Source: an uncultured Ruminococcus sp.
GTDB taxonomy: Bacteria; Bacillota; Clostridia; RUG12999
Direction: 5' to 3'
DNA length: 34,969 nt
Assembly: GCA_902784805.1 (NCBI GenBank)
Contig: CACZWD010000039.1
Span: 1-34,969, forward strand
The first letter of the stretch is position 1. Each line of letters starts with the position of its first letter. Under the pieces are notes generated by a model. The model did not search any database. It had not been told where the DNA came from and saw only the letters and a program-made list of their open reading frames with translations. The position numbers and the translations under genes were made by a program. Positions 4,278-34,214 of this stretch are shown here, one piece after another.

Positions 4278-4967
4278 TCAAATTCCCCGAATTTCTGTTT
4301 TAGACACATATTTTTTCACAATCGCGGCGTATTTTTCAAGCTCATCTCTTCCGGGCGCATGTAAATTTCCGAAAGGAACGGTGTCCCTGTCCGTAAACGC
4401 CTGAAGAAAATATTTTCTCCCGCCTTTTATCATCTTACCGATTTCTTCAAAATCCTTTTCCGAATGAAATTCGCTCACAACAGTAGTGCGAAATTCGTAA
4501 TCCTTTGCTTTTTCCATTATTATACCAATGCTTTTTTTAATTACGGAAATGTCGATTTTGTCAATTCCGCAGGTTTCGGCATATTTTGAAGGGCTGTTTT
4601 TTATGTCCATGGCGACATAATCCGCAAGCTTTTTATCTAAAATATTTTCAAGCATTGTGGGGTGATAGCCGTTTGTATCAAGCTTTACGGCAAATCCAAG
4701 CTCCTTTATTTTTGCAAGAAAATCCGGAAGCTCCTTATGCATACAAGGCTCTCCGCCTGTTATCGCAACGCCGTCAAGCAGCCCCTTTCTGCCTGAAAGG
4801 AACTTAAAAAACTCATCATCTGTCATAACTGCTTTCGCGCTGCTGTCCGCAAGCTCAAAATTATGGCAAAACGGACAGCGGAAATCGCAGCCGCCGAGAA
4901 ACACTGTACACGCTACGTGACCCGGAAAATCAAGCAGCGTCATTTTTTGAAGCCCATGCAGTTTCAT
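4278..4967 (-). CDS. nrdG: Anaerobic ribonucleotide reductase activating protein (radical SAM), NrdG
   Basis: This 229-aa radical SAM enzyme should install the glycyl radical on NrdD using S-adenosylmethionine and a [4Fe-4S] cluster. The cluster motif is CDFRCPFC, the Cx3Cx2C signature, near residues 27-34. ITGGEPC follows as the SAM-binding glycine motif, and MDIKNSP is another radical-SAM segment. The protein is longer than the short E. coli NrdG and resembles the subgroup found with clostridial NrdD. AAGGAG lies 10 nt before the ATG. The gene starts 17 bp after the DUF4037 gene and appears to belong to the upstream transcript, whereas nrdD has its own NrdR-type promoter. Activator and reductase may therefore be regulated differently. 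Confidence 0.92.
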   Translation of the reverse strand: MKLHGLQKMTLLDFPGHVACTVFLGGCDFRCPFCHNFELADSSAKAVMTDDEFFKFLSGRKGLLDGVAITGGEPCMHKELPDFLAKIKELGFAVKLDTNGYHPTMLENILDKKLADYVAMDIKNSPSKYAETCGIDKIDISVIKKSIGIIMEKAKDYEFRTTVVSEFHSEKDFEEIGKMIKGGRKYFLQAFTDRDTVPFGNLHAPGRDELEKYAAIVKKYVSKTEIRGI

Positions 4968-4984
4968 CTTAAAAAATCTCCTTT

Positions 4985-5923
4985 TTAAATTGCGGCAAGA
5001 ATATGCATATTTCTAAGCTCTGAATCCTCTATGCCGTCGTTTACGGAATAAGCGTGCTTTTCAAGGTCGCCGCAGCTTGCTTTTGTAATGCCTCGGTTTA
5101 TAAGCTCCGCTGTAATATCCGAAGAAATGCTCTCGATTAAAATATATTTTTCCTCACATATATTTTTGCCGTTACCGCTTGAAATAAGATATTCAAGCGT
5201 TTCAGAAAGCTCCGAAAACTTTTTGAGCTCTCTTAACGCCTTAAAACTCCATTTATAATAAGGCATATATCTTTGATTCAGTAAAAAAATCACCGCCATC
5301 GCGCTTTTTACAAATTCAAACGCGGCAAGCTGTGCCGCCGCGGTTTCCCCGTGACCGATACACCGCTTATAATTATACTGCCCCGACTGTGCCATAATCA
5401 GAAGCTGTCCGGCAAGCTTTTTAAGAAAAATATCTTCGGGATAAAATTCAAGCTTTTCCCTTATTTTTGATACCTCACCGTAATTGTCAAAAAATATTTC
5501 GCCGTTTGTAACCTCCAAAAGCGCCTGCTGCGGAACAGTCAGCCAGCCGCTTAAACTCAAACTGCCGTCGGGCGAGCCGATTTTTTCATCAAAAAATTCA
5601 TCTGTGCGAAAAACTCCGTGCCTTGCCCCGCCGACGGGCTGCATCAAAGCCCTTTTAAAGCCCATAAACTCTTTAGGGAGCTTTGCGTACGCGCGTTCAA
5701 GCAAAAACGCCGTTCTGCGGTCAATAACATCTTCACCCGGCAAAAAAATACAAAAGCCCGGCTCAAAATCGTGGTCTTTAGAAATATCGTCATCATAGCC
5801 CAGACACTCCGAGCCGCTGCCGAACATTCCCGCCGCAAGATACGGCATAATCTCTTTAAATTCATCAAGCATAGGCTTGCCGTATGCTTCGTAAAACGCC
5901 CTTGAAAGTTCAAGCCCTTTCAT
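4985..5923 (-). CDS. DUF4037 protein with nucleotidyltransferase-like N-terminus
   Basis: This 312-aa protein has an N-terminal segment GSGSECLGYDDDISKDHDF (about residues 35-53) that resembles the G-S...DxDxD metal site of nucleotidyltransferase-fold proteins. The remainder is mostly helical and fits the DUF4037 family as I recall it. No substrate is established. The gene overlaps the end of the TPR gene by 14 bp, with GGAG 10 nt before the ATG, which indicates translational coupling. I recall TPR plus DUF4037 as a recurring clostridial pair, but this is not proven here. A nucleotidyl-transfer or nucleotide-binding role is inference. Confidence 0.75.
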   Translation of the reverse strand: MKGLELSRAFYEAYGKPMLDEFKEIMPYLAAGMFGSGSECLGYDDDISKDHDFEPGFCIFLPGEDVIDRRTAFLLERAYAKLPKEFMGFKRALMQPVGGARHGVFRTDEFFDEKIGSPDGSLSLSGWLTVPQQALLEVTNGEIFFDNYGEVSKIREKLEFYPEDIFLKKLAGQLLIMAQSGQYNYKRCIGHGETAAAQLAAFEFVKSAMAVIFLLNQRYMPYYKWSFKALRELKKFSELSETLEYLISSGNGKNICEEKYILIESISSDITAELINRGITKASCGDLEKHAYSVNDGIEDSELRNMHILAAI

Positions 5924-18974: not shown

Positions 18975-22744
<3,770 letters not shown>

Positions 22745-23074
22745 TTTGTTCACCTCAATCAATAATATTGTATCCGAGATTCGCAATACGAAAAACCCTC
22801 TGATGTCAGATATAATGCTAACAGCACCTCCTGCTGTCATTTAGCATCACTTAACCCGTAAAAACGAATTCTTTTGCAGCCATGCTCGCTGCCCTGTCTT
22901 AACTTCAGCTATTAATATTGTTTCGCAAAAAAACGGCGGATACAGCGTAATCTTCGGTCTAAAGCCTGACCACAGCTCCGCAAGTTGTCGCATAAAACGA
23001 CAGAATATTTAAGGTGTAGTTTTTTCAATAATATATGATAAAACTTACCTTGCAATTGCGGAGATATACGCCAT
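22745..23074 (-). promoter_or_regulatory. Long structured 5' leader of rpoB
   Basis: About 330 nt separate the predicted start site from the rpoB ATG. In transcript order, stems include TGTCG/CGACA and GCGGA/TCCGC, the latter enclosing GGTC/GACC and followed closely by CG and T7, which is terminator-like. Further on, GCAGC pairs with GCTGC. A bulged hairpin follows, ATGCTAA/TTAGCAT with CAGCA/TGCTG, whose loop is GGAGG. No L10/L12 genes (rplJ, rplL) lie upstream, although they usually precede rpoB. I cannot assign it to a known RNA family by eye. Confidence 0.6.
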
Positions 23075-23219: not shown

Positions 23220-24032
23220 TTACTGGTTTTTTTCGGTAAAAAAATCGTACAATCTTTTTCTGAAATCCGGTGCCGTGTCATATAAGGCATGCCCGAAATT
23301 TTCGTATAAATGGTATTTAAAACCCGGTAAATTCCGAAATGTTTCAACAATCTCACGGATAGCACTTTCTCCAAAAATTTTGTCATCAACCGCGCCGACC
23401 GCAAAAATCGGACAGCGTATGTCTTCTGCGCTCAGCTTTGAATTATATCCTTTAACAGCCTCGGCAAGCGTTATGAACCGTCGCATCTCATTGTCTGTCA
23501 CAGCTTTTCCTGCCTCAATCAATGCCTGTCTATACTTCTCATAAATATCTGTAGGATAGATATTTTTCCCAAAATCAATATAAATTCCCGTGCCGTCCCT
23601 AGCTTTTGCTTTTTCTATCCAGCCTTTAATCACTGCAAATTGCCTTTCCGATACTTTTAGCGATGTTGAAGCAACAGCGACTTTTTTTATATTATCGGGA
23701 TAATGGGCAGCAAGTTCAAGAGCAATCATTCCTCCCTGTGAAGCCCCAAAAATGTAAACATCACGCAAACCGAGCGCTTTAATCGCAAGCGCTGTATCAT
23801 CAGCCATATCCTTAATTGAATAAGAAGACGGCAAAACCTTTCTCCTGTCAAAAACATACACGGTAAATTCATCTTTCATAACGCTATATTCATCGGATAT
23901 CGCCTCGGCGGCACCCATAACGCTTTGCACGCTGAGCCCCGGAAGAATTACAAGCGGCTTTTCACCTTTTCCGAAACGAAAAAAATCCATAATAAATTCG
24001 TTCACGCATACAGATTTAATTTTTATACTCAT
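23220..24032 (-). CDS. Alpha/beta hydrolase of RsbQ-like size
   Basis: This 270-aa cytoplasmic protein has the alpha/beta-hydrolase fold. The nucleophile elbow is GASQGG with S98, the acid is probably D216 or D217 in AVGAVDDKIFG, and the histidine is H248 in NFGHALYD. Length and triad spacing resemble B. subtilis RsbQ (269 aa), the hydrolase that activates the PP2C phosphatase RsbP. Many unrelated hydrolases share this layout, so the comparison is only suggestive. It lies 50 bp after the MATE-ATPase gene with AAGGGG 5 nt before its ATG and no clear promoter of its own. It is probably the last gene of the partner-switching operon. Substrate unknown. Confidence 0.85.
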   Translation of the reverse strand: MSIKIKSVCVNEFIMDFFRFGKGEKPLVILPGLSVQSVMGAAEAISDEYSVMKDEFTVYVFDRRKVLPSSYSIKDMADDTALAIKALGLRDVYIFGASQGGMIALELAAHYPDNIKKVAVASTSLKVSERQFAVIKGWIEKAKARDGTGIYIDFGKNIYPTDIYEKYRQALIEAGKAVTDNEMRRFITLAEAVKGYNSKLSAEDIRCPIFAVGAVDDKIFGESAIREIVETFRNLPGFKYHLYENFGHALYDTAPDFRKRLYDFFTEKNQ

Positions 24033-24082: not shown

Positions 24083-25858
24083 TTAAATTTTTATAAATAA
24101 ATTGTTCAATCTTAAAAAACTTGTATATCGGACATTTTTTGCCGTTCTGATAATCATACGCAAGCCTATATGGTGAGCGGGATCGTCATCAGAGTATAAT
24201 TTCAGCTGGCTGACCGGGTCAAAAATCAGACAGTCATCACGAATCCTTATTATGTAGTCTTCTCCTTTATGTATAATCCGCACATCAATGCTGTGATTTT
24301 TTTTATCTTTTGAAAAACCATGCTCTATCACGTTGCCCGCCATTTCCTCCACGGCAAGTGACATAAGATATTTGCGGCGGTCATCGCAGCCGTATGCTTC
24401 ACAGAAACCCCACACCTCCTGCGAAAGCTTTGCGACCTCGGTCATTGTCGTAATACTTCGGTCCATACAATCCTTCTCCGTTACATCAAAACTATCCGGC
24501 AAAAGAAGCACCTTTTGCCAGAATCCTTCCGGGCGAATGTTCAATCTGTGATTTTCCAAAAAAATTACCGCAATAAAATAAATTACCAAAAGCACCTGAG
24601 TGACCGGAAAAGCATACCACACAGCGTCAGCTCCAAGCAGACCTGCCATAATTCCCGCGGAAAGAATCATAAACCCGCACTCCGTTAAAAATCCCGAAAC
24701 CGCCGACAGACGGGTTCTTCCTATTCCGTGAATATAGTCCTGATAAATAAGATTCAGCCCGTGAAGCGGCATACCGATTGAATACGCCCTCACAGCACGG
24801 ATTGACATTTTAAGAGTTTCCGAATCGCCGTTAATAAACAATGCCGCAAACTGCGGAGCAAAAACCCAGCTTATAACAGATACTCCGAGTGTAAATATAA
24901 ACGTCGCCCGTACAGATGTAACAAGCAAGTGCTTCATCATAGGCCGGTCACCTTCGCCCGTCAGCACACCCGCAAGCGCAGAAACGGTATCCGCTATACC
25001 TGCCGCCATCGGTACAAGCAAGGCTTCGGCCTGCCCGTAAACCGAATACGCCGCAATTGCCGCGGAAGAAGCAATCACCGCCAAAAGACGGTTCATAAAA
25101 ATCCCTTTTATTGTATGCCCCAGCCGGTGTATTCCGGAAGGGACGCCTTCCTCCAGCAGTTCTCCCGTACACTTCAAAGAAATGTTTTTGAAGGAAAGCT
25201 TTAAAAAAGTGTTATGTCTGAAAAAATGTGTCATAAAAACAAGCAGCGCGGCTATATAGCTTATACTTGTAACCAGCCCCATTTCAAAAGTATCACCGTG
25301 AAAAACAAAAACAACGGCAAGGTCAAGCAGAATATTTGTGACAGTCATGACGGCGGAAGCAATAACCGGAAGTCCCCTGTTATTATCAATCGGTACAAAC
25401 GCCCACAATACCCATATAACGTTTCTTGCCGGGATACCTATCGCAATACCTATCATATAAGCCCGCGCCTTAGGAAGCAGCGCCGCGGCATTTCCTGTAG
25501 CACCAAGCATTCTTGTTATCGGGACCGAAAATACCAAGACTATTATAACCACAGCCGTAGCAATTCCTGCCGCAAGCGCGCAAGCGAGAGAAAACACGTT
25601 TTGTGCCTCTTTTGTCTTTCCGCTGCCCATAAGCCGTACAAAACGGCTCCGCGCGCCGTTGGCGAGGACAGCGCCGATTAACGCAAGAATGACCATAAGG
25701 GGATTTATGATTCCAAAAGCGGCTATGGAATCAACTCCAAGGTATTGACCTATTATGACACCGTCAATAAGCGAACCCAAAGAAGATGTAATGGCAGCCC
25801 CCACGTAAGATGCGAGCTGAACGTAAAATGTATTGCGAATAATTCTTCCGTTTTGCAT
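24083..25858 (-). CDS. MATE-family transporter fused to an RsbW-like HATPase domain
   Basis: This 591-aa protein begins with a MATE-type transporter (about 1-445) of about twelve hydrophobic segments, starting VQLASYVGAAITSSLGSLID. The C-terminus (about 460-591) is a cytoplasmic ATP-binding domain of the anti-sigma-kinase class. Its N box is LAVEEMAGNVIEHGF. The G1 box is degenerate (RIRDDCLIFDP instead of DxGxPFDP) and the G2 box is reduced to HHIGLRMI. Serine-kinase activity may therefore be weak or lost, leaving a binding domain. The gene is in the operon of STAS and PP2C genes, so STAS binding could gate transport, which is inference. GAGGAG lies 5 nt before the ATG. Ordinary MATE proteins lack this domain. 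Confidence 0.88.
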   Translation of the reverse strand: MQNGRIIRNTFYVQLASYVGAAITSSLGSLIDGVIIGQYLGVDSIAAFGIINPLMVILALIGAVLANGARSRFVRLMGSGKTKEAQNVFSLACALAAGIATAVVIIVLVFSVPITRMLGATGNAAALLPKARAYMIGIAIGIPARNVIWVLWAFVPIDNNRGLPVIASAVMTVTNILLDLAVVFVFHGDTFEMGLVTSISYIAALLVFMTHFFRHNTFLKLSFKNISLKCTGELLEEGVPSGIHRLGHTIKGIFMNRLLAVIASSAAIAAYSVYGQAEALLVPMAAGIADTVSALAGVLTGEGDRPMMKHLLVTSVRATFIFTLGVSVISWVFAPQFAALFINGDSETLKMSIRAVRAYSIGMPLHGLNLIYQDYIHGIGRTRLSAVSGFLTECGFMILSAGIMAGLLGADAVWYAFPVTQVLLVIYFIAVIFLENHRLNIRPEGFWQKVLLLPDSFDVTEKDCMDRSITTMTEVAKLSQEVWGFCEAYGCDDRRKYLMSLAVEEMAGNVIEHGFSKDKKNHSIDVRIIHKGEDYIIRIRDDCLIFDPVSQLKLYSDDDPAHHIGLRMIIRTAKNVRYTSFLRLNNLFIKI

Positions 25859-25911: not shown

Positions 25912-27129
25912 TTATTTATTGTAAGCAAAAATTGTCAGAACTGCATAGAAAACCGCTGTGCCTCCAAGAATAAGCGCCTGTTTTACTCTGTGATTCACAA
26001 GAAGCCCCGCAAATTCGCGTACCGCCGCATTGGGCCAGAAATACCACTTTGTTTTTGCGCCCATACCTACCGCGCGCATCTTTACCCGCCTTGCGAAAAT
26101 ACCGCTGCGGAAAACATGATAATTTGTGGTCGAAAAAGCAATCTTGCCTTCGGGATTAATTTTCTGTATCTTTTCTTTCGAGAATTTCATATTTTCAAAG
26201 GTGTTTTTTGACCTGTCTTCCTCAATAATATTTTTTTCGTGAACGCCGCAATCAATAAGGCAGCGCTTCATCGCGGCACTTTCGGAAATTATTTCGTCAT
26301 CGCCTTTGCCGCCCGAGGTGATAAATATAAGGTCTTTTCCTGTCAGCGACTTCTGTTTTTCGTAAAAAGCGACCGCGCGCTCAACTCTGCCGCGCAGCAG
26401 CGGTGTCGGCGTACCGTCTTTTTTAAGACCGCAGCCGAGAATAATAAGAAAATCTATATTTTTTTCAGGCTCATAACGCGCTGTAACAGCACCTGCAACA
26501 ATAGTCCCTATAAGCATACATTCAAAATACAGGTAAAGAGACGCTAAAAAATTTGTTATAAGGTCGTGAAGCATTACTTCAAGCCGACTGCCCGATACCG
26601 CAAAGTCAAAGGTGAATATAAACACTTCTCCCGCAACAATAACAAACGAAAGGAAAATTCCGAGCAGGTTTACAAATCTCATTCCTTCGTGCCTTATCAG
26701 CGAAATATTGGAAAGACAGAGCGCTGCGAAAAATATAAGCAGAAAAGGTGATGAAATAAATATATAATTTTTTGCCGAGGTCAGCAGAGAACGGATAACT
26801 TCGTCTGCTCTGTATATTTCGGGATATTTAAATATACGGACCGCAAGGACAATATGCGTAATCATAACGGAAAATGCAAACAACGCAAATCCGAAATAAA
26901 TAATTGTATTGTAAGAATACGGATTGTAGCGAATCTGCTCACAAAATGAGTAAATAAGCGTAAATTCGGCAAAAAAACAATATGCCGCAATAAGCAAACA
27001 AACTGCCCCGATGTTTCCGGAGGGGCTGACTGTAATAAGCAATGCTGCGGCAATTAGTGATACGACTGTCAGAATCAGCAAATTAAAAAGTTTTGGTTTT
27101 TTATCTCTTGTATCAAATTTCAGAACCAT
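25912..27129 (-). CDS. DUF218 (YdcF-like) membrane protein
   Basis: This protein of about 405 aa has six or so N-terminal membrane segments (roughly residues 10-220), a DUF218 domain, and one more hydrophobic segment at the C-terminus. The domain starts FLIILGCGLKKDGTPTPLLR and contains ITSGGKG, SKNTFENMKFS and STTNYHVFRS. DUF218 proteins are associated with envelope metabolism (for example SanA/ElyC in E. coli), but biochemistry is largely undefined. The ATG at 27129 is chosen because GAGGGG lies 7 nt upstream; it overlaps the end of the HD gene by 17 bp. The tight overlap suggests a shared role with the HD and partner-switching proteins. Confidence 0.82.
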   Translation of the reverse strand: MVLKFDTRDKKPKLFNLLILTVVSLIAAALLITVSPSGNIGAVCLLIAAYCFFAEFTLIYSFCEQIRYNPYSYNTIIYFGFALFAFSVMITHIVLAVRIFKYPEIYRADEVIRSLLTSAKNYIFISSPFLLIFFAALCLSNISLIRHEGMRFVNLLGIFLSFVIVAGEVFIFTFDFAVSGSRLEVMLHDLITNFLASLYLYFECMLIGTIVAGAVTARYEPEKNIDFLIILGCGLKKDGTPTPLLRGRVERAVAFYEKQKSLTGKDLIFITSGGKGDDEIISESAAMKRCLIDCGVHEKNIIEEDRSKNTFENMKFSKEKIQKINPEGKIAFSTTNYHVFRSGIFARRVKMRAVGMGAKTKWYFWPNAAVREFAGLLVNHRVKQALILGGTAVFYAVLTIFAYNK

Positions 27130-27694
27130 TATGAATCCCCTCAAAAACCGTTTCCACCAGCCGGTTATATTCTGACCATGCTTCCGAGTCTTTCAGGTCT
27201 TCAACAAGAATGCAGACCGAACGGTAATACCATGCCTGCCATGCGGGGTCCTTTTGGTTAAAGGTTTCCCACATCGCGCTGCCCTCATTCTTCCACAGCC
27301 TGTAAAACGAACGCATATTTGATAACTTATCCGCAAGCCATAATATTTTTACGCCGATGTCGGAGGCTTGTTTTAACTTTTCGAGAGATTCCTTCTTACG
27401 GATACGCCAGCTTTCTTCGGGATTTGTTTCCGGACGCTTGTTTTCCGTTTCGGAGGCAACCAGCGCCGCCACGCGCGAACCGAAAACAGCCTCAATTTCC
27501 TCTATTGATGCATCGGTATCTTCAGCTGTATCGTGAAGAACCGCCGCCGCAAGAATCTCCGTATCATCCGTTAATGTTCCGGCAATTGCCGCCACCTCCA
27601 GGGGGTGAAGAATATATGGAATTTTTTCACGTTTACGCATCATACCACTATGTTTCTTTATAGCAAATTCCAGTGCGTTGTCAAACAAATTCAT
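27113..27694 (-). CDS. HD-domain hydrolase resembling SpoT/MESH1 (p)ppGpp hydrolases
   Basis: This 193-aa protein is a single HD domain without a synthetase domain. The metal-ligand set of SpoT-type hydrolases is visible: ILHPLEVA (H30), VLHDTAEDTD (H54, D55) and ILWLADKLSNMRS. Small proteins of this kind remove the 3'-pyrophosphate of (p)ppGpp, as in MESH1, but some act on other nucleotides, so the substrate is inferred. The domain ends near residue 130, and a Trp-rich helical tail follows. The gene starts 6 bp after the STAS-kinase-ATPase gene and overlaps the DUF218 gene, so it is firmly part of the operon. A weak AGAGG lies 12 nt before the ATG. Confidence 0.82.
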   Translation of the reverse strand: MNLFDNALEFAIKKHSGMMRKREKIPYILHPLEVAAIAGTLTDDTEILAAAVLHDTAEDTDASIEEIEAVFGSRVAALVASETENKRPETNPEESWRIRKKESLEKLKQASDIGVKILWLADKLSNMRSFYRLWKNEGSAMWETFNQKDPAWQAWYYRSVCILVEDLKDSEAWSEYNRLVETVFEGIHNGSEI

Positions 27695-27700
27695 ATTGAT

Positions 27701-29308
27701 TCAAAGCCTCTTTCTCAATATAAGAATATTCTGTCCGTCCCTGTGTTCGTAAAAAATTTCGTCCATAATTTTTTTTGTCATAAATATACCGACTCCGCCG
27801 ATTTGACGTTCATCTGCCGAAAGCGTTATATCGGGGTCCTCTTTTTCAAGGGGATTGTACGGAACCCCACGGTCGGCAAAGGTAATCTCTGCCGCGGAAG
27901 GCTCTCCCGATAATTTCACACTTACCGAAACTTTTCCGACGTCCGGCGCGTAAGCGTAGTTTGCGATATTTACAAATATTTCCTCGACTGCCAAATCTAT
28001 CTGCATAAGTTTTTTCGCAGAGCAATCGACTTTTTCAAGACGAGAGTTGATAAAGCCTATCACCTTCTGCAAATTATTAACGGAGGCTTCAATATCAAGC
28101 TCGTCGGAATCGCTTTTTTCACCGCAATTAATGTCAAATTCAAGAGAATCCACTCTCCGAAGAAGCTCTGTAAGTCTGTTTTGCCAAAGTGAAATCGTCG
28201 CGTTTTCGACCTCACTGTTATTGCCCGGATGACGTGTACGCCAATCAATAAGATATGCATATGACAAACAGCGGATTTTTTCCTCAATCTCACGGATTTT
28301 ATTTTCATCTTTTGTGTCAAAATAAGCCTCAAGAGTTTTGTGCCAAAACTCACCGGCAACATTGATATCATAGCCCTGAAACTTTAAAACAATTTCGGGG
28401 TCGTATTCGGCATATCCGATATAGGAGTTGTACATACGCAAAAACTCAAAAATCGGATGCCCCACGGAAAGTGTATCCATATCAATAAGCAACACCTCAT
28501 TATCGGCAATCACAATATTCTTTGTATGGAAATCACCATGCACCATATGATTACTTTCGGGAACAGCGTTTGCCATTCGCAGAAGCTTGTCGCCAAGACC
28601 GTCCGGCAGGCGGTCTTTCATTCTTTCAAGCGCTTTAAGTGTTTTTTCTTTTATCGACGGCAGTTTACCTTCAGGCACCGTAATACTGTGTATTTTTTTC
28701 AGCATTTTAACGTATTCCGCTACGCAAAAATCCATACGCTCCGGCTCTTTGGCAAGTATATTTGAAAAAGAACGGGCATTAAGAAGCTCAAAAACAGAGC
28801 CATAGCTGTCGCCGACCCTGACCACGTCATAAGATATTGCTGTCGGGACGCCGAGAATCAGTGCCAGCCGCGCCACTTCGCGCTCATGCTGAATTTCGGC
28901 AATCGCGTCGGCATTTTTATATGTCTTTACGACATTATCACGGTCGATACGGTAAACTTTTCCGTTAAAGCCCTCGCCGATAACCTCACAGCCCTCAACG
29001 GAAACAACAACCCGGTACGCCTTTTCCACCCGCATCATTTCGGTAAAACCCGTCATTTCCAGAATTTCATACACCTCTGTGCGGACATTTATAATTCTGA
29101 GGTCGGAATATATTTTTTTGACACGCAGTATTACACGTAATCCGGCGCTCGAAATATATTCCAAATGCTCCGCGTCCAGAATAACGGACGATGAGCCGCT
29201 GTCGGCAAGCTGCGCAAATATTTTTTTCTCTGTTTCCGCGGAATTTTCGGAATCAATCCTTCCTGACAATTTAACAGTGACATAATTTTTTTCTATTTTG
29301 TTTGTCAT
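27701..29308 (-). CDS. STAS / APH-like kinase / HATPase triple-domain protein
   Basis: This 535-aa soluble protein joins three domains. Residues 1-100 are a STAS anti-anti-sigma domain with LEYISSAGLRVIL; S54 aligns with the phosphorylated serine of SpoIIAA and RsbV. Residues 105-375 are an aminoglycoside/choline-kinase-like domain with the glycine-rich GEGFNGKVY, K128, the catalytic HGDFHTKN (257-264) and DMD (276-278). Residues 405-535 are an RsbW/SpoIIAB-like ATPase with VEEIFVNIANYAY, DRGVPYNP and GGVGIFMTKKI, all intact. It holds the switch substrate and its kinase in one chain with an additional small-molecule-type kinase. The ATG has AGGAGA 9 nt upstream. The kinase substrate is unknown. 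Confidence 0.9.
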   Translation of the reverse strand: MTNKIEKNYVTVKLSGRIDSENSAETEKKIFAQLADSGSSSVILDAEHLEYISSAGLRVILRVKKIYSDLRIINVRTEVYEILEMTGFTEMMRVEKAYRVVVSVEGCEVIGEGFNGKVYRIDRDNVVKTYKNADAIAEIQHEREVARLALILGVPTAISYDVVRVGDSYGSVFELLNARSFSNILAKEPERMDFCVAEYVKMLKKIHSITVPEGKLPSIKEKTLKALERMKDRLPDGLGDKLLRMANAVPESNHMVHGDFHTKNIVIADNEVLLIDMDTLSVGHPIFEFLRMYNSYIGYAEYDPEIVLKFQGYDINVAGEFWHKTLEAYFDTKDENKIREIEEKIRCLSYAYLIDWRTRHPGNNSEVENATISLWQNRLTELLRRVDSLEFDINCGEKSDSDELDIEASVNNLQKVIGFINSRLEKVDCSAKKLMQIDLAVEEIFVNIANYAYAPDVGKVSVSVKLSGEPSAAEITFADRGVPYNPLEKEDPDITLSADERQIGGVGIFMTKKIMDEIFYEHRDGQNILILRKRL

Positions 29309-29361: not shown

Positions 29362-31083
29362 TTATTCTTCAATTTTTTTGTACTCCATACAAAGCATGGT
29401 CAAATCATCGAACTGCTCCGCGCTTTTTACAAACTCGTCAATAGCTGTATGCACATTTTTAAGTATTTGTTCGGGTGCCGCATTTGTATCTTTGTTGAGA
29501 GCCGAAAGCATACGTTCTTTTTCAAACATATTTCCTTGAGCATCTGTTGCTTCGGGCACTCCGTCGGTGTACAAAAATATCTTTGAACCCGGCTCAAGCA
29601 TCAGCTCATACTGCTTATACTTTATGCCGTCCATACCGCCGATTACAAAACCGTGAGTATCCTTTAACAATTCAAAAGCACCGCCGGGATTTTTTAATGC
29701 AGGGTATTCATGTCCGGCGTTTGCCGCCGTGAGCTTTCCGGTGGATATTTCCAGTATCCCCAGCCAGACCGTTACAAACATTTCTTCACGGTTATTGGAA
29801 CAAATCGCTGCGTTTGTATCGCTCAATATTTGTGCGGGGCTTTTGCCCATCATAGCATTGTTGGCGAGAATTATCTTGGTTGCCATCATAAACAGTGCCG
29901 CGGGGATACCTTTTCCCGAAACATCAGCTATAACCATACACAGATGATTGCTATCTATAAGGAAAAAGTCATAAAAATCGCCTCCGACCTCTTTTGCCGG
30001 ATCCATTGTTGCATAAATATCAAATTCAGACCTGTCCGGAAAGGCGGGATAGACGTTTGGAAGCATATCTGCCTGTATTCGGGTAGCAAGATTCAATTCC
30101 GTGGTAATTCGTTCTTTTTCTGCCGTTATTTTCGTCAGATTTTCCTCGTATTCGGAAAGAGACATCTCCATATCCGCCATAACAAGGCTAAGATTTTCCA
30201 CCTCGTCTCCGGTATGTATATCAAGTGATGCAAAACAGTTCGTGTCCTTAACTCCCGCGCTTCGTTCTTTCGCGTATTCCTGTGCGGCATTGGCAATCTC
30301 GTCAATCGGTTCCACCAATGTTTTTTTCATATGCCTTATCATCAAGAACGAAATAATCATAATTATCAGCAACATGGCAACAGTGACCTGCAGCGTGTAT
30401 GTACGTATACCTGTCAAAACATTATCTATTGTCACATCAACAAGCAGAAACGCACAAATTTTTCCCTTATCATTCCGTAGTGGCGTCCCTGCGGTACAAA
30501 TCCAGCCGTATTTATCGATATGCTCAATATCATAAAGCATACCTTCGCCGTTCCAATCCAAAAACTTATGCATCCCTTTTTCGTTTACCGGCTCCCATTC
30601 ACCGGGCAAAAGCCGGTCTTCTTCGTCGGGGTCAACAATATACACCATGGCGCTGTTTTCTTCATCATACATAGCAAGATAAACATCCGAAACATCTTCC
30701 GAACGGGTATAATTTGAAAGCATATTAATTAAAACAGTATAGTTTTTGGCGCTTTCAAATTCGGAAAATTCGGCACGATATTCAGCGGTGCCGGTTTTCA
30801 TACGTTTTTCCGCATTTAAGCTTTTGTATTTTTCCATAACCTCCTGCGCAAACGCAAGCGGATCTGCTCCATATGTTGCCGACATGGAGGCGTACTGCGA
30901 AATATAAAAAGCATGGTTTACATACTGCATTGTAAGTGAATAACTGTATAATCCCAAGCCGACTATCAGCATGACAATGCCGAGCAAAATACAGCCTAAC
31001 AGCGTCGCGCGAAATGTTTTTGCTTCAAGAGAATAGTGCTTTCGTTGTGCAGCACTCATTTCTCTGACTGTTTTTTCAGGCAT
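29362..31083 (-). CDS. Membrane SpoIIE/PP2C serine phosphatase with extracellular sensor and HAMP
   Basis: The protein is about 573 aa. A membrane segment (about 27-50) is followed by an extracellular domain (about 52-228) that looks Cache-like. A second membrane segment (about 231-250), a HAMP linker (about 251-310), a coiled coil, and a PP2C/SpoIIE domain (about 345-570) follow. Catalytic metal aspartates are visible in VGGDFYD (D369) and IADVSGKG (D387), with LYTDGVPEA and EQFDDLTMLC later. Such enzymes dephosphorylate STAS proteins, here probably the adjacent STAS protein and/or the fused one. The ATG at 31083 is preferred over a TTG at 31104 because GGAGG lies 6 nt upstream. It starts 13 bp after the STAS gene. 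Confidence 0.92.
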   Translation of the reverse strand: MPEKTVREMSAAQRKHYSLEAKTFRATLLGCILLGIVMLIVGLGLYSYSLTMQYVNHAFYISQYASMSATYGADPLAFAQEVMEKYKSLNAEKRMKTGTAEYRAEFSEFESAKNYTVLINMLSNYTRSEDVSDVYLAMYDEENSAMVYIVDPDEEDRLLPGEWEPVNEKGMHKFLDWNGEGMLYDIEHIDKYGWICTAGTPLRNDKGKICAFLLVDVTIDNVLTGIRTYTLQVTVAMLLIIMIISFLMIRHMKKTLVEPIDEIANAAQEYAKERSAGVKDTNCFASLDIHTGDEVENLSLVMADMEMSLSEYEENLTKITAEKERITTELNLATRIQADMLPNVYPAFPDRSEFDIYATMDPAKEVGGDFYDFFLIDSNHLCMVIADVSGKGIPAALFMMATKIILANNAMMGKSPAQILSDTNAAICSNNREEMFVTVWLGILEISTGKLTAANAGHEYPALKNPGGAFELLKDTHGFVIGGMDGIKYKQYELMLEPGSKIFLYTDGVPEATDAQGNMFEKERMLSALNKDTNAAPEQILKNVHTAIDEFVKSAEQFDDLTMLCMEYKKIEE

Positions 31084-31096
31084 AGCGCTCCTCCGT

Positions 31097-31396
31097 TTAC
31101 TCAATAGTCAAAATATCCGAAAATCCCGTAACTTCAAAAATCTCCTTTATTGTTTCGTTCACACGGCAAAGCTTCATTTTTCCCTGTCTGTTCATAGCTT
31201 TCTGTGCCAAAAGCAACACACGCAAACCCGCGGAAGAAATATATTCCAGCTTTTTGAAATCCAATATGAGTTCCGTAAGTCCCGGGAGCGCTTCACGTAT
31301 AACCTTTTCCATTTCCGGCGCCGTAACCGTATCCAGCCGCCCTTCAAGTGTCAGGACAGCCTTTGTGTTTTCGATTTTTTTGCTAATATTCAGCAT
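31097..31396 (-). CDS. STAS-domain anti-anti-sigma factor-like protein
   Basis: This single STAS-domain protein of about 99 aa resembles SpoIIAA, RsbV and BtrV. The motif LEYISSAGLRVLLLAQ contains the serine that RsbW-type kinases phosphorylate and PP2C phosphatases restore. It is nearly identical around this motif to the STAS domain of the fused kinase two genes downstream. The start is uncertain: ATG 31396 has AAAGGA 12 nt upstream, while ATG 31408 lies only 1 nt after it. The reading frame extends further upstream into the diguanylate cyclase gene but without a better site. Its partners are probably the two HATPase domains in this operon, because no separate RsbW is present. Confidence 0.88.
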   Translation of the reverse strand: MLNISKKIENTKAVLTLEGRLDTVTAPEMEKVIREALPGLTELILDFKKLEYISSAGLRVLLLAQKAMNRQGKMKLCRVNETIKEIFEVTGFSDILTIE

Positions 31397-31442
31397 TTTT
31401 ATATTCATTCCTTTCTGACGCACATATACGCAGCAAAATTCG

Positions 31443-32657
31443 CTACATCTGCTGTGCCATATCATTCAATAATTGTTTTCTCTCGTACATTTTTTTATCA
31501 GCCTGCTTAAAAACATCATTAAGGCTGCGGTCAATACCGGGGTAAAACTCTTTAAGTCCCGCGGCAATAATTACCGACCCGTTTTTAAGATTTTTTTCTA
31601 TCTGTATATTAAAGGACAATAAGAGCTCTTTTCGTTTGTTATAATCGGTACCTTCAAGAATTGCCGCAAATTCATCTCCGCCTATACGGTAAAGCGGGCT
31701 GTTTTTAAATATGTTGCAAATAAGCCTGCAAGCATCTTTAAGCAGCCTGTTTCCTGCCTCGTGTCCCAATGTATCGTTCGCAGTTTTAAGCCCGTTAAGG
31801 TCAAAAACAACAACGGCAAATTCCTTCATCACACCGTTTGCGATTCGCCTGTTTATACTTGTTTCCGCTTCGGAATAGGCGTGTAAGCTTCTGACTCCCG
31901 TAAGAGAGTCGGTATATGCCATATTCTTTACCGTTCCGAGCTCCTGTTTACGTAGCTGCTCCCGTTTAAGAAGCTTTTCAAGCTCTGTTCTGCGTTCTTC
32001 TTTTTCATCTTCCAAAACAAAGGTATGAATAATACAGGTGCCGAGTAAGTATCCGATTGCGTATAGCGGCAAAAGAGGATAAAATATCTGGGCAAAAATA
32101 AAAATTGTCATTGCAACGCAGTAAAAACCAATTGTTCTGTATCGGCGCCCTCTTCTGCTTTTTTTCTTTAAGCTGATGAAAAGCGTATATGCGGATATCA
32201 TTAAAAACAAGAGAATCTGAATAAACAAGTTTATATATCTCACTTTACCGGCATTATAAACACCGCTTTCATCGAAATAAAATAATATCGGATAAAAGAA
32301 ATTAACCGACAAAACGATTAATTCGCATACAAAATAAATTCGGCCGGTAAAGAACAATATTTTTCCAAATAAAAGTTTTTCATTCAGATATTCTATTACA
32401 TACTGCGTCAGCAAAAAAACCGACATAGCCATAGTTATAAAATAAATAACCGTATTAAAATAATTGATATATATAAGCTTGTGCTCGTACAGAATCCCCC
32501 ATAAAGTATCGGAAATATAGTAGCACATAACGCAATTCAAAAAATGACGATATGTTTTATTCGCGGATGATTCGTCTTTATTGCTGTTTCTTAAAACATC
32601 ATAATTAATTATAATATGTATAAGCAGAGCAATAATTCCAAAGCTTGAATACACCAT
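31443..32657 (-). CDS. Membrane diguanylate cyclase (GGDEF)
   Basis: This 404-aa protein has about seven hydrophobic segments in residues 5-215, a short coiled coil (about 217-240), and a GGDEF domain (about 245-400). The active site YRIGGDEF (326-330) is intact, and so are DSLTGVRSL and VFDLNGLKTANDTLGHEAG. It should make cyclic di-GMP from two GTP. The usual inhibitory RxxD site before GGDEF reads KNSP here, so product inhibition through that site is not expected. It is the first gene of the partner-switching operon, behind a consensus promoter. The multi-span sensor has no ligand I recognise. GGGAG lies 10 nt before the ATG, with a closer AGGA. Confidence 0.9.
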   Translation of the reverse strand: MVYSSFGIIALLIHIIINYDVLRNSNKDESSANKTYRHFLNCVMCYYISDTLWGILYEHKLIYINYFNTVIYFITMAMSVFLLTQYVIEYLNEKLLFGKILFFTGRIYFVCELIVLSVNFFYPILFYFDESGVYNAGKVRYINLFIQILLFLMISAYTLFISLKKKSRRGRRYRTIGFYCVAMTIFIFAQIFYPLLPLYAIGYLLGTCIIHTFVLEDEKEERRTELEKLLKREQLRKQELGTVKNMAYTDSLTGVRSLHAYSEAETSINRRIANGVMKEFAVVVFDLNGLKTANDTLGHEAGNRLLKDACRLICNIFKNSPLYRIGGDEFAAILEGTDYNKRKELLLSFNIQIEKNLKNGSVIIAAGLKEFYPGIDRSLNDVFKQADKKMYERKQLLNDMAQQM

Positions 32658-33433: not shown

Positions 33434-34214
33434 TCACCTATTTATATTTTTAATCCATCGTGCCGCTTCGTCAATCCACTTTGCGGCATACGGAATATCC
33501 ATTTCACTGTTTCCGCACGAGGTTATTTCGTTTGCAAGCGCAACACCGTGACAGCCCTCCGGATAAATATGCAGCTCGTAAGAAATGCCGTTATCGGTAA
33601 GCGCCTGCGCCATAGCAAGTGAATTATATACAGATACTACTGTGTCTGGTACTGTATGTACAAGAAACATCGGCACGGTTCTTTCGTCAACACAATTTTC
33701 AAGAGAATATTTTTCCAGCTGCTCCACTGTCGGATTTTCCGTACCGAGTATATTGTAAAAAGAGCCTAAATGAGCGCCCCTGACAACTCCTGAAATTACG
33801 GGATACACGGGAATAACGGCTTTCGGCTTATTATAGCCGTAAGGCATATCTGTCGCCTCGTAAATTTCCTTCATATGCCAAAGAGTACCGAGGCTTGCGC
33901 ATAAATGCCGCATCGGCATAAAAACGCTCCGCGTTATCCTTAATATATTTCATTGCTTTTGAAGCTTCAATAAGCGGTTTCGGGAAAACGGCTTTTTCTT
34001 TAACCGAATAGTGCAGTACAAAAGCGTTAAAACCCTTTGCCGCAAAAGCAAGCGCGACAGGTTCGCCTTCACGGTCACTGCATACCTCCGAATAGCCGCC
34101 GCCCGGAATTACAAGTATTGAATCCTTTATTCTTCCGTAAATATCATCGGGAACATAAGTTTCAAGAAACACATTTTCATCATTTTCATCTAAACGTATT
34201 TTTTCATAAATCAT
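33434..34214 (-). pseudogene. Alpha/beta hydrolase (acetyl-esterase-like), broken by an internal deletion
   Basis: Two overlapping frames encode the halves of one esterase-like alpha/beta hydrolase. The 5' half (from ATG 34214) has the oxyanion motif VIPGGGYSEV and runs to KYIKDNAERF. The 3' half has HLCASLGTLWHM, the acid-site segment HTVPDTVVSVYNS and the histidine segment PEGCHGVALA. The family usually has about 16 residues including GFSAGG between AERF and HL. Here only 13 bases remain, a loss of about 35 nt near 33905-33930 that removes the catalytic serine motif and shifts the frame. No active product is expected. It lies between proC (14 bp) and the LOG gene (5 bp), so the rest of the operon may still be transcribed. 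Confidence 0.85.

Follow-up and report, generated by a model that had tools for sequence, protein, structure and literature searches.

Partner switching is known mainly as a way to control sigma factors, with a few other targets, and its kinases RsbW and SpoIIAB are dimers that pair through the GHKL dimer mode. Some described systems reach further. In SiaABCD of Pseudomonas aeruginosa, a phosphatase, a kinase and the STAS-type protein SiaC control a target that is not a sigma factor by direct binding (PMC8457831, PMC7647112). MlaB-MlaF is a case of STAS-type control of a transporter, in which the binding becomes weaker upon a phosphomimetic substitution at the MlaB site (PMC7367683), while TciR is a fusion of a REC and an RsbW domain (PMC12826045). 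We found no description of a fusion between a MATE transporter and an RsbW-like HATPase domain in the open literature, subscription journals being outside this coverage. MatE and HATPase_c_2 are both known Pfam domains, and it is quite likely that domain databases already include their fused architecture.

The window, i.e. the whole stretch of 34,969 nucleotides that we analysed, forms one contig of a draft genome of 1.67 Mb. Its open reading frame at 24083-25858 (minus strand) starts with ATG behind a good Shine-Dalgarno sequence, GAGGAG, and encodes 591 amino acids that form a 12-TM MATE transporter fused to a GHKL domain of the RsbW/SpoIIAB type. Pfam detects MatE in two stretches (1.1e-24) and HATPase_c_2 at residues 473-579 (5.5e-9), both above the curated cut-offs. 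The transporter part, residues 1-440 with twelve TM helices (24539..25858, minus strand), was also recognised by Foldseek, with MATE structure 6fhz among the best matches (1.8e-12, from a query model of pLDDT 60), and by phmmer, with PfMATE 3w4t (4.1e-13). Residues 441-591 (24083..24538, minus strand) make up a linker and the C-terminal HATPase_c_2 domain, and profile A1, built on this domain, matched RsbW 6m36 (8.6e-4) and SpoIIAB 1th8 (0.034) in the PDB. AlphaFold gave models of poor to moderate quality, with pLDDT 53 for the domain alone and 60, and no interface could be read from them; the model of the domain alone, based on an alignment of four rows that was too shallow for a pocket to be read either, had no match in the PDB.

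The original prediction was a MATE transporter with a degenerate RsbW-like domain, having a good N box, a G1 box reading RDDCLIFDP and a G2 box that had lost most of its glycines, and both the Pfam matches and our own reading of the boxes bear this out. The N box EEMAGNVIEHG (residues 504-514; 24317..24349, minus strand) retains Glu504, Glu505 and Asn509, so that the fused domain resembles the RsbW/SpoIIAB kinases in its domain type and in the Glu and Asn of the N box. It departs from them in the two glycine boxes. G1, DDCLIFDP (residues 541-548; 24215..24238, minus strand), deviates from the pattern DxGxxFDP solely at its third residue, where Gly has become Cys (C543), and the kinase DxG thus reads DDC. 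In the G2 region, DPAHHIGLRMI (residues 559-569; 24152..24184, minus strand), the GxG is gone, the ATP lid is short instead of full and a single Gly remains.

The pump itself belongs to the MATE family by its MatE profile, its 12-TM fold and the TM1 aspartate of the N-lobe cation site. This aspartate, D32 (25763..25765, minus strand), is the equivalent of PfMATE D41 in the sequence alignment, and N175 and D179 align with PfMATE N180 and D184. Since these equivalents are retained, the pump looks competent; among 40 fusions D32 is found in 34, N175 in 31 and D179 in 34. Other residues are specific to the fusions, namely E302, F89, N256, P53 and D304. Two of them, E302 and D304, lie in the sequence GEGDR of the loop between TM8 and TM9 (residues 301-305; 24944..24958, minus strand), within a GE[ED]DR motif common to the fusions. 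The fraction of fusions having E302 is 0.93, against 0.03 of stand-alone MATEs, and for D304 the fractions are 0.88 and 0.25. From the established topology of MATE transporters we take this loop to be cytoplasmic, and we infer that it is a candidate docking site for the HATPase tail.

The fusion gene is the seventh of eight genes on the same strand, which are separated by about 55 bp or less, or overlap. The cluster starts with a membrane GGDEF protein (31443..32657; Pfam GGDEF 2.9e-18), followed by a stand-alone STAS protein of the RsbV/SpoIIAA kind with the serine motif ISSAGL (31097..31465; Pfam STAS 1.5e-15, TIGR00377 2.8e-22), a SpoIIE/RsbU-type PP2C phosphatase with a membrane sensor part (29362..31104; Pfam SpoIIE 2.2e-48) and a triple fusion STAS-APH-HATPase (27701..29308; STAS 2.7e-13, APH 1.6e-14, HATPase_c_2 5.3e-21). 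Thereafter come a SpoT-like HD protein (27113..27694; Pfam HD_4 3.9e-23), a DUF218 membrane protein (25912..27144; 3.2e-24), the MATE-HATPase fusion and an alpha/beta hydrolase (23220..24032; Abhydrolase_1 2.6e-16), all on the minus strand. The cluster thus co-encodes the PP2C phosphatase, the STAS protein and the intact kinase of a partner switch. Aligned with other HATPases, the triple fusion has canonical N, G1 (DRG) and G2 (GGVG) boxes and is the candidate kinase of the circuit; it joins an antagonist to its likely kinase through a phosphotransferase-like domain. Close homologues of it adjoin MATE-HATPase genes at three other loci (L025, L061 and L066). The profile of the SiaA equivalog phosphatase, NF038263, reached only 65 bits against a cut-off of 700. 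Elsewhere in the window, rpoB is split into two open reading frames (18975-20861 and 20984-22840, minus strand) where the frame shifts in a stretch of seven A; since reading resumes in another frame, an indel from sequencing or assembly of the draft genome is the probable cause, and the overlapping frames 33434-33919 and 33831-34214 (minus strand) resemble the halves of one frameshifted alpha/beta hydrolase/esterase gene.

Such fusions, of about 590 residues, are a family that is widespread in Clostridia and relatives. We collected 64 fused domains including that of the window, a set from the class (59) and five more (L181, L182, L183, L184 and L187), and with 63 further fusions of the same layout the architecture is far beyond chance. 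Whole-length matches were present in 18 of 391 genomes of the class, the window's own included, and the eight other genomes searched from the window's family and small order had none. Profile A1 matched in 24 genomes of the class and, within one other family, in 25 of the 40 searched. Three further fusions were found in public genome contigs, which belong to MAGs of the rumen and other sources under the names Lachnospiraceae, Oscillospiraceae and uncultured Clostridia, and a survey of the phylum gave additional ones in other classes; a search of plasmids matched the MATE part only. In a tree of the MATE columns alone, 40 fusions fall on one side of a branch (100/97) and 32 stand-alone MATEs, drawn from genomes of the same kinds, on the other, and judging from this tree the fusion arose from a single origin. 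The tree of HATPase domains places the MATE-fused domains apart from the kinase-like ones (98% SH-aLRT), a split that drops to 50/48 when the lid columns are removed and more rows are added.

The genes around the fusions were surveyed at 36 non-redundant loci, on the same strand and within 6.5 kb. SpoIIE was found at 16 of them, STAS at 13, another HATPase at 17 (three of these atypical) and an NRPS or adenylation-domain gene at eight; at least one switch component (SpoIIE, STAS or other HATPase) is present at 23. SpoIIE genes are scarce in these genomes, none of which has more than five. In nine genomes it lies within 5 kb of six of 15 fusions and of none of 59 stand-alone MATEs (Fisher p=2.7e-5), and from its density 0.23 of the 15 fusions would be expected to have it that close. 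Chance proximity of switch genes was rejected on these two controls. One clade (100/99) holds the NRPS neighbours, adjacent C-A-T modules that end in a thioester-reductase-like domain, the layout described for AusA/aureusimine (PMC6712304). An NRPS-reductase or adenylation-domain gene is directly upstream at L073, L074, L075, L078, L081, L085 and L086, and directly downstream at L125, L128, L132 and L133.

Some neighbours were of other kinds. At L071, L072, L076 and the loci of genus g79, two genes for GNAT-like acetyltransferases stand between SpoIIE and the kinase, and STAS was undetected. A conserved family of about 194-204 amino acids adjoins STAS or SpoIIE (L061 6732-7316, L058 8250-8864, L065 18172-18783, L083 2411-2995); the one member scanned had no Pfam match, and its LRLxAEEL helix, which recalls the GHKL N box, suggests that it may be another degenerate HATPase. 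Just upstream of the STAS and MATE-HATPase genes of L181, a small frame (4681-4998) has a motif like a double-glycine leader (LTDEELDAIVGG), a possible peptide natural product context.

None of the 59 Clostridia-class fusions has all four canonical features (Asn, Asp, Gly and GxG), which are present in 28 of 28 kinase-like HATPases of neighbouring genes; the GxG alone gives the same counts, 0/59 and 28/28, and the median of the ATP lid is 14 in fusions against 20 in neighbouring kinases. The third residue of G1 is G, C or S according to clade, and these states need three changes for four states on the MATE-only tree, which is the minimum. The original prediction looked to G1 in other fusions, and counted homologues with a canonical G1 box and an active kinase against a binding module. 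The Cys is indeed conserved in all 17 members of the window's clade (15 full-length ones in the tree, L064 and L112), but homologues beyond this clade retain DxG, which makes the G1 change specific to the clade; those of the Clostridia class lack the GxG as well. What is nearly family-wide, with the exception of L181, is the degeneracy of G2 and the ATP lid. These alignments show a genuine catalytic degeneracy, which is both old and conserved. The boxes are most eroded in L059 (G331:C9) and L112 (G421), with Tyr for the N-box Asn and Arg for a G2 Gly. We dropped the idea that DxC is coupled to a change from Thr to Leu of the final strand (LNNT/LNNL), as intact neighbouring kinases also have NILT.

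A kinase domain that merely decays without function would account for the changes in G1 and G2, but conservation is higher in the fused domain than in the pump (48% against 20% in L066, 42% against 20% in L063 and 77% against 67% in L058), four residues (E504, E505, Y578 and N585) are invariant in 56 of 56 domains, and DxC is fixed across a clade of at least six family-level groups. On these comparisons the constraint on the domain exceeds that on the pump, and we rejected decay as highly improbable. The catalytic Glu and Mg-binding Asn are mostly retained (E504/E505 in 59 of 59 domains, N509 in 51 of 59) and D541 is kept in most, so residual nucleotide binding, even catalysis, is possible. 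A still-active STAS kinase with an unusual pocket would agree with this and with L181, a fusion of another class that keeps a full lid and GGLG, with a G1 of DDA, and in whose gene cluster we found no separate kinase before the contig ends soon afterwards. L181 falls within the fusion clade of the MATE-only tree, and for these reasons it suggests that the ancestor's fused domain was an active kinase. Yet the GxG is gone in all Clostridia-class members, intact kinases are encoded next door and the N-box Asn is lost in L059, L062 and others, so that activity today seems improbable. Nor do we expect much of a nucleotide-sensing regulator, in which the retained Glu, Asn and Asp would bind ATP or ADP and the energy state would gate the pump independently of STAS, as the phosphate-holding GxG and lid are lost in 59 of 59 and the linkage to SpoIIE and STAS would be left unexplained.

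Our preferred explanation, to which we give slightly less than an even chance, is that the retired kinase domain is a docking module that ties the MATE exporter into a partner-switching circuit. In this circuit, the phosphorylation of STAS would be set by the SpoIIE-type phosphatase together with the intact HATPase kinase, here STAS-APH-HATPase. The RsbW-like domain of the pump, lacking the G2 and lid machinery required of a kinase, would provide the surface on which STAS, most likely in its unphosphorylated form, docks. It would then relay the STAS state to the pump, perhaps by way of the cytoplasmic TM8-9 loop that is specific to the fusions. The original prediction of a binding module that reports STAS phosphorylation survives in part: a non-catalytic module fits the loss of G2 and lid, the strong constraint and the SpoIIE, STAS and intact-kinase neighbours, while we infer that the domain is inactive as a kinase, that it binds STAS and which way control runs. 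A strongly conserved domain that has lost its catalytic features, situated among switch genes, points to direct control of the pump by the switch or of the switch by the pump, and SiaC-SiaD and MlaB-MlaF, as analogous cases of STAS-type control of non-sigma targets through binding that responds to phosphorylation, make docking plausible. Against it stand 13 of the 36 loci, where the 6.5 kb surveyed on the same strand hold no switch gene, some being near contig ends and four having an NRPS neighbour instead, the genome G331, the one checked in the genus of L059 and L112, which has no SpoIIE gene at all, genus g79, where no STAS was detected beside the fusion, the largely retained pocket residues, and L181 with its lid and GxG. 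The fuller version, that unphosphorylated STAS docks on the fused pseudokinase to open or close the pump and in one branch gates the export of an NRPS-reductase product of the peptide-aldehyde type, is more tentative and on the whole unlikely; if true, a stress-type switch would control the release of a specialised metabolite post-translationally. The signal could also run in reverse, with the pump as membrane anchor or transport sensor, the dead domain pairing with the intact kinase or sequestering STAS, and the switch, along with what lies downstream of it (a sigma factor or diguanylate cyclase), taking its state from substrate flux. The linkage to SpoIIE, STAS and kinase fits this too, the GGDEF gene heads the window cluster and RsbW and SpoIIAB offer the dimer mode, but the transport residues and the NRPS adjacency suggest that the pump matters as a pump and a known sigma target was not identified in these operons; we find this direction rather doubtful.

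If docking is true, secondary transport would be a direct output, or input, of partner switches, with a specific handle on the timing of specialised-metabolite release by some anaerobes, and C543, the missing GxG and E302/D304 offer simple tests. The fusion shares with RsbW and SpoIIAB (HATPase_c_2, PF13581) the domain family, the N box, the G1 Asp and the linkage to STAS and a SpoIIE/RsbU-type phosphatase, but it carries a transporter, has lost the GxG and the lid, has Cys for the G1 Gly in the window's clade and has no sigma partner that we could see. With PfMATE and the DinF-BH branch of MATE transporters it has in common the 12-TM fold, the TM1 Asp and the N-lobe residues, to which it adds the C-terminal GHKL tail, the E302/D304 loop, N256, F89 and P53, and its clade is separate from the stand-alone MATEs. 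Like SiaABCD, the window combines a GGDEF gene with a STAS protein and a phosphatase, here SpoIIE, but the target there is the diguanylate cyclase, whereas the candidate target here is the fused GHKL domain on the pump. TciR and SypE likewise have an RsbW-like domain fused to another module, with a target that is unknown or not a sigma factor, but these are soluble response regulators without a transporter. In MlaB-MlaF and the SLC26/SulP proteins a transporter is under STAS-type control, as we predict here, but the STAS domain is there on the transporter side, whereas here the transporter bears the putative STAS-binding counterpart, the RsbW-like domain.
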